DNA of 8,794 nucleotides from Candidatus Sumerlaeota bacterium. GTDB lineage: Bacteria > CG03 > SLGR01. Location: the NCBI GenBank assembly GCA_007136585.1, contig SLGR01000170.1, forward strand, positions 1 through 8,794, written 5' to 3'. The notes under the pieces were generated by a model, which was not told the origin of the DNA, searched no databases, and saw nothing but the letters and a program-made list of their open reading frames with translations. Of this stretch, positions 1 to 8,268 are shown piece after piece. The position numbers and the translations under genes are program-made. Position 1 is the first letter of the stretch. Every line of letters starts with the position of its first letter.

Positions 1-3000
1 GCGGCCCCGGTGGAGGTCAGGCCGATACTTATACCTGGCCGGCCCCTGTCACAACCTCCGGGGAGCTTACAGCAACCGTCACAATAGACGGGGCGGTTGA
101 AACCGGTCTCTTCACCGTGGACTCCTCTGCCGCAATTGGGTGTGTCCCCTCTGTTGAGGACATAACCGCGGGGGAGAGCCCCGAGATCCGGATTTATGAT
201 GCGCAGGACGCTTACGGGAATCTTCTCGAAGGGGAGTACTCGGCAACCTTAACTATTGACGGGACAATCAAAACTCCTGATCTTAATTTCACCGGCGGAG
301 AAGCTACTTTCGAATGGGATTCGATGACGGCAGCCGGAGGATATGAGTTAGAAGCGGTCATAGACGGAATACCGGATTTTGCCCTTTTCACTGTAATGCC
401 CTCATCCGCAGTTGATTTCATAGTATCTGTGGATAACATAACAGCGGGAGAAAGCCCCCAGATCCATATATTCGGCGCGCATGACACGTATGGAAACCTT
501 CTTGAAGGAGAGTACCAGTCATCTATAAATATTATCTTTGAAACAAAAACTCCTGATCTTAATTTCACCGGCGGAGCAGCTACTTTCGAGTGGGATCCGA
601 TGACGACGCCCGACACGCCAAACGCGGAAGTGAGTATAGACGGTGTAGCCAGATCAGATTTCTTTGAAATAAGCCACGGGCCACCCGATTATTTACTGGT
701 GTATTCGTCTCCCGATGGGATAATAGCCGGTAACACGCAAAGCTTCTTCTCAGACGCGTTTGACGAGTACGGTAACAATATAGGCTTCGTCACGGATGAG
801 ACGGTCTGGTCAATAGAACCGGAAGCTGGTGGGAGCTGGGATGATAACATATATACTTCCGAGTTCTCCGGAGACTGGACGGTGACCGGCACATACGACG
901 GGGACATCACAGGGACAGCCTCTCTAAGCGTCAGGAGCGCAGGTGTTGTTGAGTTCAACCTTTCTGTTTCTGATATAACAGCGGGGGAGAGCCCCCGGGT
1001 ACAGATAAGCGAAGCCCGGGACGGGTTCGGGAACCTTCTTGGCGGGGAGTACCAGGCACTTATAACTATTGACGGGATACAGCAGGATCCTGATCTTACT
1101 TTCACCGGCGGATCCGCTTCTTTTGATTGGGATCCTATAGAAACCGCCTTCATATATGATGCGGAAGTGAGTATAGGCCCTGTAACTGAGACCGACTCAT
1201 TTAACGTAAGCCCCGGAGCGCCCGCTCTTTTAGATGTGCTTCCGAATACCGCTGAGATAACAGCCGGGGAGACCCGGGAATACTACGCGGACGCGTTTGA
1301 CGAGCACGGTAACAGTATAGGCGACGTCACGGCTGTGACGGTCTGGACAATAGAACCGGGAGCGGGGGGGAGCTGGGATGATAACATATACACTTCCGAG
1401 TTTTCCGGAGATTGGACGGTGACCGGAACCTACGGGGAAATCACAGGGACAGCCTCTCTTGGTGTCGGGAGCGCGGGCGTCTCGGAGTTTAACCTTTCTG
1501 TTGATGATATAAGCGCGGGAGAAAGCCCCCGGATTCAGATAAGCGAAGTCCGGGACGGGTTCGGGAACCTTTTCGAAGGGAACCAGACAGTAAATATAAC
1601 GGTATATAGAAATTTTATTCCGGACGGGAATCAATGGCCTACTCTGAATTTCGAAAGCGGAGCCGCTTCTCACGATTGGTGGCTTACAACGACCCCGGGC
1701 GAATATGAAGCAGAAGTGAGTATAGGGAGTGTGCTGAGGACAGATTCATTCCACGTAAGCCCCGGACCACCAGCTGTTTTAGTTGTCTACCCGAATACAG
1801 CTGAGATAACAGCCGGGGAGACCCGGGAATACTACGCAGAAGTCTTTGACGAGTACGAAAACCCGGTAGGAACCGTTACAAATGAGACTGACTGGTCAAT
1901 AGAACCGGGAGCGGGGGGGAGCTGGAATGAGTACATATACACTTCCCGGTTCTCCGGAGACTGGACGGTGACCGGCACCTATGAGGGAATCACAGGAACA
2001 GCATCTTTGAGAGTCAACTCTGCCGCACCTGCTGACCTTAGCGTTGAAACGCAGCCCGGCGACACGGGCGCTGGTGAAGAGATTCCCGGTCCTCCCGAGG
2101 CCAGAGTCGCTGACGAGTTCGGAAACCCGGTTCCCGGGGTCGGGGTTACGGTAAGTATCCAGGGTGGGGGAGATTTTGACGGCGGTGACGATACCGCCGT
2201 AACAAACGCTGCCGGTATAGCGAGTTTTACTGACCTGGTCATAAATAGCATGGGTTCATACAACCTGGTTTTTAATTCAGACGGACTGGACCCTGCAGTC
2301 TCTGATGATTTTAATATAACCTCAGCGGCGGCCTACAGCCTCGCCTTCGTGCAGCATCCTTCTGATGCGGCTGCCGGAGAGACGATAACCCCTGCTGTAA
2401 GTGTACGGGTTAAGGATGCTTACGGTAATTTTGCCGAAACAGCTGATAATATGATCACACTGTCGATAGATAACGATCCTTCGGAGGGGGCTGTCCTGAA
2501 AGGGACAGTTGAGAGAGCTGCGGTAGACGGGGCAGCAGAGTTCAGCGATATTAATATTGAGATCGCGGCTTCGGGGTACACCCTCTCGGCGTCAGCGGCA
2601 GGGCTTGAGGGAGCAGAATCCGATAGTTTCAATATAACCGCCGCATCTCCCGCAGTATTGAGCGTTGAAACGCAGCCCGGAGATACGACCGCCGGCCAGG
2701 CTATAGCCGGTCCGCCGGAGGTTAAAGCCGTAGATGAATTTGGAAACCCTGTTCCCGGAGCGGAAGTCGAGGTATCCATAAAGGGGGGCGGGGATTTTGC
2801 CGCCGGTCTCTTAACGGCAGATACAGGCCCTGACGGAATCGCGGATTTCACCGGACTGGTTATTGCCAGGCCGGGGGATTACCAGCTGGTCTTCAGCGCC
2901 GCCGGAGCGGCTGATGCGGAATCGTCGGTCTTTACAGTAAATGATATAGAAATAGAGGTAACAGGGGTTGAAGCTCATAGCGCGGTCATAAGAGTACTTG

Positions 3001-3965
3001 ACGCAGATAAGCTCACTGCGCTTAAATCACAGCCCTTTAAATTCATTGCAAGTACCTCTACAGCGTTTGACAGCCCCGTTGAAACCGGGTGGTTTGAGGA
3101 AGATGAAGGGAAAGTATCCGGGCTTAAGACCGGAACTACCTACTGGTTCAAAGCCGTTATAAGGTTTGAATCCGGATACGAGGTAAAGACCGCGACAGCG
3201 TCTGCCGCGACAGTATTGGTTGAGACAGCCACCGGAGGGTTCAGCGAAACAAAGGACGACGATGACGGTAAAACAACTATTTCAGTCCCCTCAACCAACT
3301 TCCCGGTCTATGCTTTACTGGGCGCTCCTGAGCCTGATGATGAAACATTAATTGATGAAGCGAACAATAAGCTGAATAATGAAAATTTCAATACCGGTAT
3401 CATTTCCCCGATTAGCTTCTCATTGAAAGACGATAAGGGAGAGGACGTGGATTATTCCACAGCTTTCTCTGATCCGGATGCCAGGATAGTTTTGAGGCTC
3501 TACTACGAGGAGGACCTGACCGCTAAAGAGCTTGACGGGCTCCGTATGGCAAGGCTTAACAGGAATACTTCGGAATGGGAACTGATAGATCGTGACCTTG
3601 TAACTGTTAACCATAGTGAAAAATGGGTTGAGGCAAGGCTTGAGAGCCTTTCCATATACTCTCTGGTTATTGAGCCCGCGTCCGCAGTCGCGGACCTCTC
3701 GGATGTCTTTGTATACCCAAACCCGTATAAACCTTCACAGGGGCACGCGTGGATCAAATTCGACAACCTTGGCGGGGAGACAAAGATTCAGATAATGACA
3801 ATATCCGGAGACCTGGTATTTGAAGCTAAAGGGATAACCGGGTCCGAATTTGAGTGGAACGCAAGGAACGATTCGGGCAGGGAGGTGGCCAGCGGAGTTT
3901 ATATAGCCCTTATTACCAATGAAGAAGGTGAGAGCAAAGTGTTGCGTCTGGCGGTGCTGAGATGA
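1..3965 (+). CDS. Giant Ig-repeat surface protein with FlgD-like C-terminal sorting-type domain (5' partial)
   Basis: The reading frame (codons from base 3) is open to the left edge, so the N-terminus is missing; 1320 residues are visible. The GTG at 117 could be read as a start, but the 38 codons before it encode the end of another Ig-like repeat. From GTG=1 the layout is: A repeats at about 10-102, 103-197, 282-377 and 460-560; B repeats at 198-281, 378-459 and 561-640; C repeats at 641-742, 743-847 and 848-943. Almost every repeat has an AGE or AGx motif followed by D-x-x-GN. An FN3-like segment (944-1039), a conserved pre-terminal domain (about 1041-1187) and a C-terminal FlgD/type IX-like domain (1193-1282: YPNP, then W-x-n-G, SGVY, ending in a basic strand) follow. 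I infer a secreted, surface-displayed adhesin or stalk protein. The stop overlaps the next gene by ATGA, which suggests coupled translation with its likely secretion partner. No enzymatic domain is visible. Confidence 0.88.
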   Translation, partial: GPGGGQADTYTWPAPVTTSGELTATVTIDGAVETGLFTVDSSAAIGCVPSVEDITAGESPEIRIYDAQDAYGNLLEGEYSATLTIDGTIKTPDLNFTGGEATFEWDSMTAAGGYELEAVIDGIPDFALFTVMPSSAVDFIVSVDNITAGESPQIHIFGAHDTYGNLLEGEYQSSINIIFETKTPDLNFTGGAATFEWDPMTTPDTPNAEVSIDGVARSDFFEISHGPPDYLLVYSSPDGIIAGNTQSFFSDAFDEYGNNIGFVTDETVWSIEPEAGGSWDDNIYTSEFSGDWTVTGTYDGDITGTASLSVRSAGVVEFNLSVSDITAGESPRVQISEARDGFGNLLGGEYQALITIDGIQQDPDLTFTGGSASFDWDPIETAFIYDAEVSIGPVTETDSFNVSPGAPALLDVLPNTAEITAGETREYYADAFDEHGNSIGDVTAVTVWTIEPGAGGSWDDNIYTSEFSGDWTVTGTYGEITGTASLGVGSAGVSEFNLSVDDISAGESPRIQISEVRDGFGNLFEGNQTVNITVYRNFIPDGNQWPTLNFESGAASHDWWLTTTPGEYEAEVSIGSVLRTDSFHVSPGPPAVLVVYPNTAEITAGETREYYAEVFDEYENPVGTVTNETDWSIEPGAGGSWNEYIYTSRFSGDWTVTGTYEGITGTASLRVNSAAPADLSVETQPGDTGAGEEIPGPPEARVADEFGNPVPGVGVTVSIQGGGDFDGGDDTAVTNAAGIASFTDLVINSMGSYNLVFNSDGLDPAVSDDFNITSAAAYSLAFVQHPSDAAAGETITPAVSVRVKDAYGNFAETADNMITLSIDNDPSEGAVLKGTVERAAVDGAAEFSDINIEIAASGYTLSASAAGLEGAESDSFNITAASPAVLSVETQPGDTTAGQAIAGPPEVKAVDEFGNPVPGAEVEVSIKGGGDFAAGLLTADTGPDGIADFTGLVIARPGDYQLVFSAAGAADAESSVFTVNDIEIEVTGVEAHSAVIRVLDADKLTALKSQPFKFIASTSTAFDSPVETGWFEEDEGKVSGLKTGTTYWFKAVIRFESGYEVKTATASAATVLVETATGGFSETKDDDDGKTTISVPSTNFPVYALLGAPEPDDETLIDEANNKLNNENFNTGIISPISFSLKDDKGEDVDYSTAFSDPDARIVLRLYYEEDLTAKELDGLRMARLNRNTSEWELIDRDLVTVNHSEKWVEARLESLSIYSLVIEPASAVADLSDVFVYPNPYKPSQGHAWIKFDNLGGETKIQIMTISGDLVFEAKGITGSEFEWNARNDSGREVASGVYIALITNEEGESKVLRLAVLR
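270..596 (+). repeat. Near-identical 51-nt blocks in adjacent A repeats (270-320 and 546-596)
   Basis: The two blocks are offset by 276 bp (92 codons). They share their first 31 nt exactly and differ at only two positions over 51 nt, while the flanking parts of the two repeats are clearly diverged. Both encode the TPDLNFTGG and TFEWD portion of the A unit. The local homogeneity suggests gene conversion or selection on this strand pair. Confidence 0.8.
423..2036 (+). repeat. Three tandem A-B Ig-like modules inside the giant surface protein gene
   Basis: Modules at about 423-959, 960-1493 and 1494-2036 each encode an A unit (SV-x-D/N-I-x-AGESP, D-x-x-GNL, then D/E-W) followed by a B unit (AG-x-T, FDE-x-x-N, W-x-IEP, GGSW, YTS-x-FSGDWTVTGTY). 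Lengths are close to 537, 534 and 543 bp. The B-unit stretch around GGSW to GTASL is nearly identical at the DNA level at about 831, 1368 and 1917, with many third positions unchanged, which points to recent duplication or gene conversion. A further A unit precedes the array, and the remnant of another repeat lies at the left edge. Confidence 0.85.
2037..2945 (+). repeat. Three C-type Ig-like repeats
   Basis: Units start near 2037, 2343 and 2658. The first and third are most alike: both begin LSVETQPGDT, with 20 identical nucleotides from 2040 and 2661, and both carry GPPE, DEFGNPVPG, VSI-x-GGGDF and a late LVF strand. The middle unit has a diverged form (QHPSDAAAGE, DAYGN). This pattern is typical of tandem bacterial Ig-like domains in surface proteins. 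The C1/C3 similarity across C2 suggests that a two-domain block was duplicated and one copy later diverged or was lost. Confidence 0.75.
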
Positions 3966-5248
3966 TGAGAAAACTTCTTTTATTATCAGTTCTTGTACTG
4001 CTTTTTTCCGGGCGTGTGACTCAGGCTACGGATAAAAGGGCGGGTACATCCGCCTTTCAGTTCCTCAACATTGTCCCGGGAGCGAGAGAGGCTTCTATGG
4101 GCGGGGCCCTGTCGCATTCAAATAACGCGAATAATATCTTCCATAACCCCGCCGGGATGGCCCGGATAGATGGGGTGGAGCTCGGTCTCAGCTATAACAG
4201 ATGGATTTCTGATACCACTCAGCAGACGGTATCCGGGGTGTACCCGACAGCATACGGGAATTTCGGTCTCGGCATACTGTACCTCCACGTAGGGGAAATA
4301 AAGGGATACGATGTAGATGTGCTAGGGGATCCTGTGAGAATCTCAGATTTCTCACCCTATGATCTTCTTATAGCAGGCAGTTATTCAAAAGTATTTCCGT
4401 GGTTCTCGGCCGGTGTAAACGTTAAGTTCTTCCGTGAGGAGATAGAGGATGTCAAGGCGGAAGGATTAGCCTTTGATTTTGGAATAAGAAGGGATTTCGC
4501 CGACAGGTTAAGCTTGGGGGTCACGGTTAATAACGCAGGCTCCGGCGTCAAGTTTATTGAAGAAGAAGAGTCGCTTCCGCTTAGCCTGAGGGTAGGAGCC
4601 GCCTATGGGATTACAGACAGCCTGTTTGCCGCAGCTGATCTTCTGGTCCGGAATGATAACACTCCAGAAGCAGGTTTCGGAGCAGAGTACTCAATTATTA
4701 AAAACCTGGCCGCCCTTAGGGCCGGTTATAAGTACGCGAATGACCTTAGCAGAAATTTTTCTGCCGGTGCCGGTATAACCGTCTCCGGATGGAGCCTGGA
4801 TTATGCTTTTGTGCCTTTTGAAGACCTGAGAGATAATCACAGGGTTTCTCTCTTATACAGGTTCGGAAAACCGCTTGAAGAGATACTGCGCGAGCCGGTT
4901 GATCTGATAGATGAAGCAGTTGAAAAGGTTGAAGAAAAACCGGAACTTCCGGAAGAGCCGGAACCATACGAACCGGAAGAACCGGAACCGTACGAGCCGG
5001 AAGAGCCGGAGCCTGTAATCATTCACGAGGAAGACCCTGTTGAGTATGAGGAAGAAGAAGTATTAATTGAGAAACCTGTTAAGGAGAGCACGCAGGTTGA
5101 AGAGGGCGAGAGCCTCTGGACGATAGCTGAAAGAGTATACGGAGATCCGTCCAGGTGGGTTGAAATTTTTGAGGCAAACAGAGATATAATAGAAGACCCC
5201 GACCTCATATTACCCGGGATGAGCCTGAGTATTCCGGAGAACCGCTAA
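3962..5248 (+). CDS. PorV/PorQ-family-like outer-membrane barrel fused to a C-terminal LysM domain
   Basis: 428 residues. Residues 1-22 form a signal peptide (MMRK, hydrophobic core, likely cut after VTQA). Residues 25-302 match the PorV/PorQ (UPF0164-like) barrel style: the early GAREASMGGA motif, the HNPAGMA motif at 61-67, then alternating beta strands ending LLYRFG. Residues 303-377 are an acidic Pro/Glu linker including EEPEPYEP repeats. Residues 378-425 are a LysM domain (GESLWTIAERVYGDP, W399, IFEANRD, PGM-x-L-x-IP). In known type IX systems PorV binds the C-terminal domain of cargo at the outer membrane, whereas LysM binds peptidoglycan. With both barrel ends in the periplasm, the LysM domain could anchor the barrel to the wall (inference). 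The start ATG overlaps the upstream stop and there is no strong Shine-Dalgarno, so translation probably depends on coupling; a second ATG directly follows. The usual family protein lacks the linker and LysM. Confidence 0.85.
   Translation: MMRKLLLLSVLVLLFSGRVTQATDKRAGTSAFQFLNIVPGAREASMGGALSHSNNANNIFHNPAGMARIDGVELGLSYNRWISDTTQQTVSGVYPTAYGNFGLGILYLHVGEIKGYDVDVLGDPVRISDFSPYDLLIAGSYSKVFPWFSAGVNVKFFREEIEDVKAEGLAFDFGIRRDFADRLSLGVTVNNAGSGVKFIEEEESLPLSLRVGAAYGITDSLFAAADLLVRNDNTPEAGFGAEYSIIKNLAALRAGYKYANDLSRNFSAGAGITVSGWSLDYAFVPFEDLRDNHRVSLLYRFGKPLEEILREPVDLIDEAVEKVEEKPELPEEPEPYEPEEPEPYEPEEPEPVIIHEEDPVEYEEEEVLIEKPVKESTQVEEGESLWTIAERVYGDPSRWVEIFEANRDIIEDPDLILPGMSLSIPENR
4952..5014 (+). repeat. EEPEPYEP tandem linker repeat
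   Basis: Two full 24-nt units and a partial third encode EEPEPYEP, EEPEPYEP and EEPEP (residues 331-351 of the barrel-LysM protein). Copies differ at several synonymous positions, so the peptide pattern is maintained rather than freshly copied. It is probably a stiff, acidic periplasmic spacer between barrel and LysM domain. Confidence 0.85.
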
Positions 5249-5265: not shown

Positions 5266-5291
5266 AAGCGGGGGCAGGCAGGAGTTCGCTT
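5266..5291. terminator. Weak candidate bidirectional terminator between convergent genes
   Basis: Inverted arms AAGCG (5266-5270) and CGCTT (5287-5291) enclose a 16-nt loop. On the plus strand the arm is followed by TTATTT; on the minus strand it is followed by AAAGTTTTGTTTT. The position, between the ends of two converging transcription units, is right. The stem is only 5 bp and the loop is long, so support is weak. Confidence 0.25.
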
Positions 5292-6118
5292 TATTTAGCT
5301 CCCGGGCGCCCGGGGAGTGAGCGCAAAAGAATAAGGGTGCTGATTATGCTCCCCGCGCCGATTAAAACCCAGAGAAAGAGCTGTGAAAGATCATCGATTG
5401 CGCCCCTTGAGTATCCCGTAATTGTTGCAGCTGAGAGCGCTGCCATATAAACCGACCCCTTAATGGCCCATATCCCGGAAAGGATATATCCCCATTCCCG
5501 TTTCCGCCATAGCCATATTCCGGAAATGAGCCCGAATGATACGACGAGCCACAAATCAAGTATAGCCGTGATATTGGTAGGATGTTCAACCGCTGTCACC
5601 ATCTCGGGTAACCGCCCTGTCCATATGTAATCTGCGGAAACCGATATCCAGAAAATTCCGAGGAACAGCGATACCGTAATGATGAAGAGACCGGCTGCTC
5701 TGTGGGCCCTGCCAATTAAGGGTGGGTGAATAAGCCCCTTTGTTCCGGGGGCTGTAAGTCCCTTAATGAGCCCGATGGTGGAAAGCACTAGAATTGCGAC
5801 ATACAATAGAAAGAGCCGGTTAAAGGAGGCCCCGAAAGCATAAAAGGCGTAGTTATAGAAGGTGTAGGCCAGCATCCCCAGCCAGAGAAGGGTCCCGCGA
5901 GGAGAGTTATTACGGTGGAGCAGATACCCTATGGTTAAGAGCGGAATGCCTATCAGGAGCGTTACCAGGTCAGTGCCGAACCAGGCGGAGCGGACCAGAA
6001 GGTTATCCCGGTAGATATCCGGGCCGAAGAAACCCCATCCGGATGCGATACCCGTGAAAAGAATCAGCGAAACAGAGAGCGGATCTTGTCTCCGGCGGGG
6101 AGTCGCAGGAAGGTTCAT
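5291..6118 (-). CDS. Polytopic (about 8-TM) membrane protein of unknown function, flavin operon
   Basis: 275 residues. Hydrophobic segments lie at about 13-31, 48-68, 75-95, 100-120, 141-161, 184-204, 209-233 and 245-266. The charge pattern (RRR at 8-10, basic loops 69-74, 119-140 and 205-208, basic C-terminus) fits cytoplasmic N- and C-termini with eight spans. I do not recognise a characterised family. The WFGTDLVTLL-type second helix and the aromatic YNYAFYAFG at 88-96 look like a conserved family signature. His68, His131, His139 and His179 exist, but no clear paired heme-ligand helix is evident. The ATG overlaps the stop of the FMN-binding gene (ATGA at 6118-6115), with AAGG upstream as a modest ribosome site, so the two are probably co-translated. 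I infer a membrane partner of the flavinylated protein, perhaps carrying electrons or anchoring the complex; a transporter is the alternative. Confidence 0.85.
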   Translation of the reverse strand: MNLPATPRRRQDPLSVSLILFTGIASGWGFFGPDIYRDNLLVRSAWFGTDLVTLLIGIPLLTIGYLLHRNNSPRGTLLWLGMLAYTFYNYAFYAFGASFNRLFLLYVAILVLSTIGLIKGLTAPGTKGLIHPPLIGRAHRAAGLFIITVSLFLGIFWISVSADYIWTGRLPEMVTAVEHPTNITAILDLWLVVSFGLISGIWLWRKREWGYILSGIWAIKGSVYMAALSAATITGYSRGAIDDLSQLFLWVLIGAGSIISTLILLRSLPGRPGAK

Positions 6119-6504
6119 TCGGTAAGCGCCTTATAAACTGCGATCATTATACTCTTACTGCTTACGGTTGCGCCGGATACCGCATCAACGGCGGGGGACT
6201 GGGCCTGAATGATCCTTTGCAAAGTTTCATGGGCCTCATATCCTTTCCCGCTTTTCTGATTTATGATTTCAATGTTTGTAATCTGATTTTCAGATACGGT
6301 TACCCTGAGGTCTACGGAGACCAGGAACTCTCCGAAAGAACCTTCATAGATGCCGTCGCTCAGCGCGGTAAGATCAATATCTGAAATAGAGGCGTAGGTT
6401 TCATCTATCGTATTTTCCATCTGTTCTGCGCGGCGGAATAGAAATAAGGCGGCTATGAGAATAGCCGGGAGTATTGCCAGGAGCAGTCTCAGGGGCTTCT
6501 TCAC
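6115..6504 (-). CDS. Membrane-anchored FMN-binding domain protein with SGAT flavinylation motif
   Basis: 129 residues. An N-terminal basic KK and a hydrophobic helix at about 5-23 anchor it with the rest outside the cytoplasm. Residues 50-127 match a minimal FMN_bind domain like those of NqrC and RnfG: DGIYEGSFGEF opening, a V-x-V strand pair, then D107-A-V-S-G-A-T113 near the end. In this family ApbE attaches FMN by a phosphoester bond to the Thr of the S/T-GAT motif, here Thr113. The protein is probably a one-electron/two-electron flavin carrier on the outer face of the inner membrane. The start codon is GTG, 13 nt after the flavodoxin stop, with a weak ribosome site. It is much shorter than NqrC or RnfG and no other Nqr/Rnf subunit is near, so it is not part of a standard Rnf complex. 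No ApbE gene lies in the window. Confidence 0.88.
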   Translation of the reverse strand: MKKPLRLLLAILPAILIAALFLFRRAEQMENTIDETYASISDIDLTALSDGIYEGSFGEFLVSVDLRVTVSENQITNIEIINQKSGKGYEAHETLQRIIQAQSPAVDAVSGATVSSKSIMIAVYKALTE

Positions 6505-6517
6505 TGGAATCTGTTAC

Positions 6518-6991
6518 TTAAAGCTGCTCTACGGCTGCCGAGGAGGCGTTTTCGATAGATTTTTTAAAGTTGCGGAAAAGCATCGGCGCGATTGCTCCTG
6601 TCCGGAGAATCGCTCCTTTCTGGTTCATATGCTTGTTCATATCCCTTATAGCGGAGGTTCCTCCCATGAAAGGGAAGGGAAACCCCATGGTCACAAAGGG
6701 GAGGGCTATCTTGCCGGATATATTTTGGAGTGACTCTATAGCGTTTATTACAACCGGCGAGGCGGAGAAAGCCCAGACAGGGCTGCCTACCAGGATAGCA
6801 TCGTAATCGGCGCAGTCGGGGAGGTTGGTGATGGTAAAATCATTTTTCTGCTTCCCGGATTTTACAGGTTTGTCGGTCTTAAGTTCTCTCAGGGTGACGC
6901 TATGATTTCTTTCAATAAGTTTAGATTCTATCTTTTGGGCAAGGGCGCGGGTGTTGCCGGTAGAGGAATGAAAAATGATGCCGATATTCAA
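6518..6991 (-). CDS. Flavodoxin family protein
   Basis: 157 residues, usual size for a short-chain flavodoxin-like protein. The first strand IGIIFHS leads into the FMN-phosphate loop S9-S-T-G-N-T14. A second conserved element, VGSPVWAFSASP (68-79), matches the flavodoxin strand-loop that contacts the isoalloxazine ring, with Trp73 in the expected place, and a third strand FVTMGFPFPFMGG (99-111) follows. It is cytoplasmic (no signal) and should carry electrons at low potential. The start is TTG, chosen because AAGGAG (7004-6999) sits 7 nt upstream and the next residues MNIGIIF begin the fold immediately. It is the first gene of the minus-strand operon and lies 13 nt before the FMN-binding gene. 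A flavodoxin-like NAD(P)H:quinone oxidoreductase or an iron-uptake flavoprotein are less likely alternatives given the operon. Confidence 0.9.
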   Translation of the reverse strand: MNIGIIFHSSTGNTRALAQKIESKLIERNHSVTLRELKTDKPVKSGKQKNDFTITNLPDCADYDAILVGSPVWAFSASPVVINAIESLQNISGKIALPFVTMGFPFPFMGGTSAIRDMNKHMNQKGAILRTGAIAPMLFRNFKKSIENASSAAVEQL

Positions 6992-7275: not shown

Positions 7276-8268
7276 ATGTCAGAGCAGAACCAGGCAGAGA
7301 ATAAAGAGAAAGTAAGCAGGGATACAGCCCCGGAAAAGGGCGGAAAAAGAAAAAAAGGGTGTCTTGCCGGATGCCTGATAATAATTGCTGTTTTTGCAGT
7401 AATCCTTGCAGGGGTATCAATTTTCGGATATCTTAACAGGCACAGGCTCCTTCCGGCGGCAATGAGCTTATTCAATGTTAAGGCATCTACGGTTATTGAA
7501 TCAATGGGTACCCCAATAGAGGAGGGAGTTCCTTCTGCTTACCTTGAGAGGGCATATGAGATCAATCTTCCTCATCAGGATACCCCGGTAAAGCTGGCAG
7601 TCTCTGATACGCCGGTTTATGATAAATATGATGAGTATATCAGTCATTTCAGGGAAGAGGGCTGGAGCGTCTCGGAGCAGGCTGAAGTCCTGAGAGGGGT
7701 TCCGGAGGAGCTTGAGCATTTTTCTTCTCATATTGAAGAGCTGAAACTCGCAAAACTTGAAAGAAACGGAGAGGGGATCAATGTGGCTGTTACAAGATAC
7801 GGCGGAGAGACGGTGGCAGCGGTCTGGGGCAAAGCGGAGGCGCCGCGTGAGGCTGCCGCGCCCACGGAGAGGGAGCCCCGGGCAGCTGAGCCGGATATCG
7901 CGCCCGAGGAGGTCACCGGAGAAGATCCGGAAGATATCGCGCCCGAGGAGGTCACCGGAGAAGATCCGGAAGATATCGCGCTTTATCCCGGTTCGGTCAG
8001 GGTGGAGTACAGATCGGCAATTGACGGTGAGACACATTACTTTGAAGCGACCTACGCCGCAGAAGCCGGAGTGGATGAGCTGCTGAGTTTTTACGAAAAT
8101 GAGATAGAAGAAACCCGGTGGGATATCGCAGCCAGGGAGAGTTCGCAGGAAGAGCATGCCATTCAGATCGTTAAGGATAACAAACAGGCGTATTTATCCT
8201 TTAGGCCAAGCAGGAATTACGGCGGTTATTCGGAAGTGGATATAGGGATTATAACCTATGGGGAGTAA
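7276..8268 (+). CDS. Single-pass membrane protein with two related extracytoplasmic segments, function unknown
   Basis: 330 residues. A hydrophilic N-terminus ends in KRKK (24-27 region) before one membrane helix at about 29-52, so the positive-inside rule puts the remaining 280 residues outside the cytoplasm. Two alpha/beta segments, about 88-186 and 236-330, look like diverged copies: each has a helix with aromatic/acidic residues ending in GW130 or RW282, then a closing strand pattern (NVAVTRYGGETVAAVWG, and the IQIV...YGGYSEVDIGI region). Between them lies a Pro/Glu/Ala-rich linker with an exact two-copy repeat of DIAPEEVTGEDPE (207-232). I do not recognise a named family. AGGAGG (7264-7269) six bases before the ATG supports the start. 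It is transcribed divergently from the flavodoxin operon and is 75 bp upstream of the rubrerythrin-type gene, which has its own promoter candidate. A role at the cell surface or envelope is all that can be inferred. Confidence 0.85.
   Translation: MSEQNQAENKEKVSRDTAPEKGGKRKKGCLAGCLIIIAVFAVILAGVSIFGYLNRHRLLPAAMSLFNVKASTVIESMGTPIEEGVPSAYLERAYEINLPHQDTPVKLAVSDTPVYDKYDEYISHFREEGWSVSEQAEVLRGVPEELEHFSSHIEELKLAKLERNGEGINVAVTRYGGETVAAVWGKAEAPREAAAPTEREPRAAEPDIAPEEVTGEDPEDIAPEEVTGEDPEDIALYPGSVRVEYRSAIDGETHYFEATYAAEAGVDELLSFYENEIEETRWDIAARESSQEEHAIQIVKDNKQAYLSFRPSRNYGGYSEVDIGIITYGE
7894..7980 (+). repeat. Perfect 39-bp tandem duplication in the linker of the membrane protein gene
   Basis: Two identical 39-bp units (7894-7932 and 7933-7971) are followed by the first 9 bp of a third. 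Each unit encodes DIAPEEVTGEDPE. Identity extends through all third positions, so the duplication is recent. As 39 is a multiple of three, gain or loss of units keeps the frame and changes only linker length. Confidence 0.95.

Follow-up and report, generated by a model that had tools for sequence, protein, structure and literature searches.

Does each surface protein of this bacterium that carries a type IX sorting domain have its own outer-membrane partner, or is one partner shared by all? Published work holds that all type A sorting domains (CTDs) go via the PorV shuttle and that only the FCB group has genes of the type IX secretion system, T9SS (PMC12618676, PMC11285876). The window, i.e. 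the whole 8,794-nt stretch of DNA analysed here, contains a large cargo gene ending in such a domain and, overlapping its stop codon, a gene for a PorV/PorQ-family barrel. The following features were located, all on the + strand.

3..3965 (+), cargo, a large surface protein of Ig-like/Big_1/CarboxypepD_reg repeats and then a pre-CTD domain, 5′-truncated at the contig end
3696..3962 (+), type A T9SS sorting domain (CTD), nearest to the retained CTD of PorZ, from profile matches and a fold model
3962..3965 (+), ATGA overlap of cargo stop and barrel start, cTGAGATGATGAG
3962..5248 (+), PorV/PorQ-family barrel gene, ending in a LysM domain
3962..4027 (+), barrel signal peptide, MMRKLLLLSVLVLLFSGRVTQA, judged by eye
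4028..4870 (+), PorV/PorQ-family outer-membrane barrel, from NF033709 and a 13-barrel profile against 6h3i
4871..5090 (+), Pro/Glu-rich linker, which from its sequence probably crosses the periplasm
5091..5245 (+), C-terminal LysM domain of the barrel protein, peptidoglycan-binding, from a domain match

The window is the entire contig C151 of a fragmented MAG (1.88 Mb, 88% complete, 257 contigs). The cargo frame is 5′-open, with 1320 aa present and the real start and signal peptide beyond the contig edge; the start at GTG 117 and the length of 1282 aa given in the first-pass annotation were thus artificial numbering. Direct repeats ~540 nt apart in the cargo gene corresponded to repeated Ig-like units, with matches to Big_1 and CarboxypepD_reg, and the region immediately before the CTD was weakly similar to that of the closest named relative (L106, described below). 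Elsewhere in the MAG, the ends of contigs C147 and C86 (L105:1-129 and L045:1-259) were overlapping parts of one CTD gene, indicating that its fragmentation falls within such genes. Convergent to the cargo/barrel pair (6115-6991, − strand) were an FMN-binding-domain protein and a flavodoxin-like protein side by side, and with these lay a gene for a 275-aa membrane protein (5291-6118) with no family matches. A 330-aa protein (7276-8268, + strand), also without family matches, appeared to have a single membrane segment and contained the direct repeat APEEVTGEDPEDI; its gene was followed by a rubrerythrin-like gene.

The C-terminal domain of the cargo, earlier described as FlgD/type IX-like, is real. 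It matched the T9SS_PorZ CTD model at 8e-19, and TIGR04183, which scored 22.9 bits on the whole cargo (cut-off 23), gave 28.2 bits when the 92-aa domain was scanned alone, exceeding the cut-off. An AlphaFold model of this domain, built from two sequences, contained seven strands with pLDDT mostly 65-84; its best fold match was PorZ (5m11, E 8e-7), and the CTDs of RemZ and RemA were also matched. Among 26 aligned CTDs, the type A model TIGR04183 matched all 26, the PorZ model 20 and the type B model TIGR04131 two. A profile of these domains searched against the PDB retrieved, in order, the CTDs of PorZ and PorU, FlgD, and the substrate CTDs of SprA-PorV structures. PorU and PorZ are T9SS proteins that keep their CTD uncleaved (PMC11285876).

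The downstream product had been called a PorV/PorQ-like barrel, and its PorV_fam (NF033709) score of 166 bits, where the cut-off is 90, bore this out. With the PorV equivalog model NF033710 it scored 70.7 bits, under the cut-off of 250; PorQ was its best equivalog match, the PorV and PorQ equivalog models both being far below their cut-offs. All 13 of 13 barrels compared were PorV_fam members, and a profile made from them found as its top PDB match the PorV of SprA-PorV structure 6h3i (E 4e-30). No match to the PorP/SprF family was found among the barrels by profile search. A structure model of the barrel from two sequences (pLDDT 32) was discarded. Weak Toluene_X and FlgD matches would suit ordinary FadL/TodX-like transporters lying next to a FlgD-like domain that is merely a structural Ig, with no link to secretion; given that PorV_fam was far over its cut-off and TodX far weaker, that TIGR04183 matched 26/26 CTDs, and that the genes are paired as described below, we regard this reading as extremely improbable.

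The LysM domain ending the window barrel, absent from the first-pass annotation, was one of several kinds of tail. Extensions of at least 45 aa were present in 44 of 106 barrels and carried TPRs in at least 29, OmpA in four, CsgG in four, and LysM in the window. A barrel at L040:4532-6316 was fused to an FlgD-like Ig domain and an OmpA wall-binding domain. At L056:7323-10039, two barrels stood in tandem with no CTD gene, and the second of them carried TPRs. A wall linkage of PorP/type B pairs through PorE has been proposed for Bacteroidota, PorE being a lipoprotein with TPR, propeller, Ig and OmpA-type wall-binding domains (PMC9143113, PMC12204202); here similar domains are fused onto the barrel itself.

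The host contigs contained 33 barrel ORFs and 37 CTD ORFs; genome profile searches gave 31 places with NF033709 and 38 with CTD alignment A1. A barrel followed a CTD gene directly and on the same strand for 26 of the 33 barrels, against 0.6 expected by chance. Two further pairs had one small ORF of 75 or 124 codons in between (L046:3334-3561 and L052:3203-3577, encoding 75 and 124 aa). As genome organisation, the proposal of one partner per cargo instead of one shared PorV was therefore strongly supported, here and phylum-wide. The cargos had also been called giant: the largest, a 3888-aa CTD protein at L061:1-11911 whose immediate downstream neighbour is a barrel truncated at the contig edge, fits that word, but many complete paired cargos were only 190 to 1000 aa.

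Pairing was incomplete in the host genome, where at least five cargos lacked an adjacent barrel and five barrels lacked a cargo. Two tandem cargos with 99% identical CTDs preceded a single barrel (L049:3-3955). Five orphan cargos, one of them near a contig end, had CTDs 43-59% identical to paired CTDs and may, judging from this similarity, share the barrels of paired cargos; orphans sharing a partner are known among the type B cargos of F. johnsoniae (PMC12618676). Three orphan cargos differed in their C terminus and formed a subfamily of their own. Large proteins of a CTD-like subfamily, which end in RD or SR and have no adjoining barrels (L100:1-7043 and L103:75-4301), may not be T9SS cargo.

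In the window the cargo stop TGA (3963-3965) overlaps the barrel start ATG at 3962, confirming the ATGA overlap noted before, and the two genes are predicted to be translationally coupled. Such a 4-base stop-start overlap was found in 50 of 84 pairs (60%), drawn from four genomes and one named relative, versus 34 of 167 other same-strand neighbours (20%) on the contigs of the window's own genome (Fisher p 1e-9; own genome alone, p 0.002).

Both families were present in 16/16 genomes of the phylum examined, with 394 CTDs and 369 barrels in all and a per-genome correlation of r 0.89. From coordinates only, a CTD lay just upstream of at least 22 of 32 barrels in G001, at least 23 of 33 in G003 and at least 12 of 23 in G008; these counts are lower bounds, as the CTD matches listed for these genomes reach down to E ~7e-10. 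The neighbourhood was thus conserved in relatives. An out-group genome outside the phylum, G018, had 127 CTDs and 17 barrel matches, with five of 15 barrels paired among the matches listed, numbers nearer the established arrangement in which a single carrier serves many cargos.

The two members of a pair also diverged together. CTD and barrel divergence were correlated over 81 pairs (Mantel r 0.63) and within each genome (0.55-0.82), and 0 of 5000 permutations per genome reached the observed value. Between genomes, 40 barrels were reciprocal best matches, and for 29 of these the accompanying CTD was the best CTD match as well. Co-divergence alone is no proof of contact, because adjacent genes co-diverge by linkage. 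The closest named relative of the window, contig JAQICQ010000157.1 from ‘Elusimicrobia bacterium isolate GH52’ (L106, outside Bacteroidota), kept the ATGA overlap, with 47% identity in the barrel and 49% in the CTD, while its ectodomain matched that of the window only at E = 2 and most of the remaining cargo was unrelated. CTD and barrel thus behave as one module taking different passengers. A search of viral contigs found no relatives.

These data bear on the idea that a single ancestral CTD-barrel operon (e.g. porU-porV or porZ-porQ) was duplicated and left the pairs as relics, with interchangeable barrels and an adjacency without functional meaning. All the CTDs are homologous to one another, as are all the barrels; linkage by itself predicts the co-divergence; and on contig C34 of G018 a pair consisting of a C25-CTD protein and then a barrel resembles porU-porV. 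Relics would hardly behave as these pairs do, many of which have diverged far yet were never separated, or have swapped passengers while CTD and barrel stayed together; nor would relics account for an ATGA overlap three times background or for CTD and barrel numbers that track each other across genomes. We consider this explanation improbable.

The pairing invites the further question of whether a cargo and its barrel are sufficient for secretion. A single 1727-aa ORF on contig C230 matched the SprA model TIGR04189 (E 1e-53) and SprA in the PDB (6h3i, E 1e-10); at 182 bits, below the curated equivalog cut-off of 200, it appears by sequence to be a distant member of the SprA family. SprA homologues turned up in 15 of the 16 phylum members, the exception being a 63%-complete genome. 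With one SprA homologue in each genome, the translocon is by implication shared, and the suggestion of the first-pass annotation that the pair could be a self-contained secretion unit was not supported. It is most unlikely that each barrel is instead the pore of its own cargo, making SprA unneeded, as in two-partner secretion: the operons, cargo then barrel with one barrel per cargo, may recall that layout, but SprA was so widely present, the barrel profile points to PorV, SprA forms the pore of the solved system (PMC10994853), and in the window barrel protein only a signal peptide precedes the barrel, with no extra N-terminal domain. We think it very unlikely, too, that the barrel is both translocator and anchor, which would give ~30 independent two-gene secretion units made of T9SS parts and leave the SprA homologue with some other role. 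GldM was found in none of 21 genomes; this is uninformative, since it was likewise unfound in G016 and G018, which have canonical SprA, and the model may be too narrow.

The reading we favour, and hold to be likely, is that each barrel is the dedicated carrier and the non-covalent anchor of its own cargo after passage through a shared SprA pore, with the CTD retained and a LysM tether to the wall. The cargo would reach the periplasm via Sec and cross the outer membrane via the single shared SprA homologue. Its type A CTD would then be recognised by the PorV-family barrel translated from the coupled message that both share, and this barrel would take the cargo off the pore. The uncleaved CTD would remain bound to the barrel, which would make the barrel the outer-membrane anchor of the cargo. 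The window barrel would also grip the wall via its periplasmic LysM tail, fixing the display unit. The binding of cargo to barrel, the carrier role, the retention of the CTD and the wall tether are all what we infer from these comparisons. Producing a barrel for every cargo, both from a single message, suits a used-up anchor better than a recycled carrier, an argument already made for type B pairs (PMC12618676). Each genome encodes ~30 secreted surface proteins, each immediately ahead of its own barrel, which probably exports the protein and keeps it on the cell.

Whether the CTD is retained or removed bears on the sortase. A search of the eight genomes in the window's order for a C25 sortase found none. 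The full PorU model was tried as evidence for a sortase in the window's own genome and rejected, its matches being to CTD regions only. In family f5, five of seven genomes (G008, G009, G010, G012 and G014) had one C25 protein each, and in G009 its frame also encodes a CTD; such proteins could be true PorU or gingipain-like cargo. Family f5 also has pairs, and because G008 combines pairing with a C25 protein, sortase loss by itself cannot explain the pairing; a link between the two is only suggestive.

The f5 proteins also matter for a simpler scheme, in which the barrel is a dedicated carrier only, taking its own cargo from SprA and then releasing it or handing it to another attachment step, with no lasting anchor. 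In its favour, the PorV of Bacteroidota is believed to be recycled once it has delivered type A cargo (PMC12618676), and the f5 genomes mostly retain one C25 protein each. A recycled carrier, however, need not be one per cargo, the CTDs are of the PorZ/PorU-like kind that is kept, no C25 sortase was found in the window's order (eight genomes), and the LysM, OmpA and TPR tails suggest fixed complexes. A carrier without a lasting anchor is accordingly rather unlikely.

Dedicated carriers that stay as anchors would have a close precedent. In Bacteroidota, type B CTDs are served by cognate PorP/SprF-like barrels, e.g. SprB-SprF, Fjoh_3952-Fjoh_3951 and PG1035-PorP (PMC12618676, PMC9143113); published AlphaFold complex predictions picked out the SprF pairs (PMC12618676). 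As there, the barrel gene here lies directly downstream of its cargo, the pore is SprA and some cargos are orphans; for some of the known pairs, attachment to the wall through PorE-type TPR/OmpA parts has been proposed. In the known system the barrel is the cognate carrier and surface anchor, roles that the barrels described here would share. Unlike those pairs, the present ones have type A CTDs (26/26) and PorV/PorQ-family barrels with no PorP-family match, number ~26 per genome against nine adjacent pairs in F. johnsoniae, carry wall-binding or TPR parts fused to the barrel, and have a named relative outside Bacteroidota. By analogy, the pairs may work like the type B/PorP-SprF family without belonging to it.

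The same CTD class and barrel family occur in the PorV shuttle of F. johnsoniae and P. gingivalis, but there one PorV, thought to be recycled, serves all type A cargos, whereas here the barrels are about as many as the cargos and paired with them. In the PorU-PorV/PorZ-PorQ attachment complex the CTD is kept, and the window CTD is nearest to that of PorZ and the best equivalog of its barrel is PorQ; the window cargo, however, is an Ig-repeat surface protein and not a sortase or LPS-delivery protein, and no C25 domain was found in its order. Two-partner secretion (type Vb) likewise has one co-encoded outer-membrane barrel per cargo, but there was no TpsA/TpsB family match, the barrel is PorV-like, the signal is C-terminal and not N-terminal, and SprA is present.

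The layout and the probable mechanism are therefore already known for type B CTD/SprF pairs. Genome-wide pairs of type A CTDs and PorV-family barrels, with fused wall-binding tails and in a phylum whose named relative lies outside Bacteroidota, appear undescribed in the literature searched, a search that mostly left subscription papers outside. In this phylum, with a named relative filed under Elusimicrobia, type A cargos and PorV-family barrels go one to one, with no C25 in the window's order. PorV-type carriers may thus be able to serve as permanent anchors. The ~84 natural CTD/barrel pairs are a source for reading the code by which CTDs are recognised, and gene order lets the cargos and partners of uncultured bacteria be matched.
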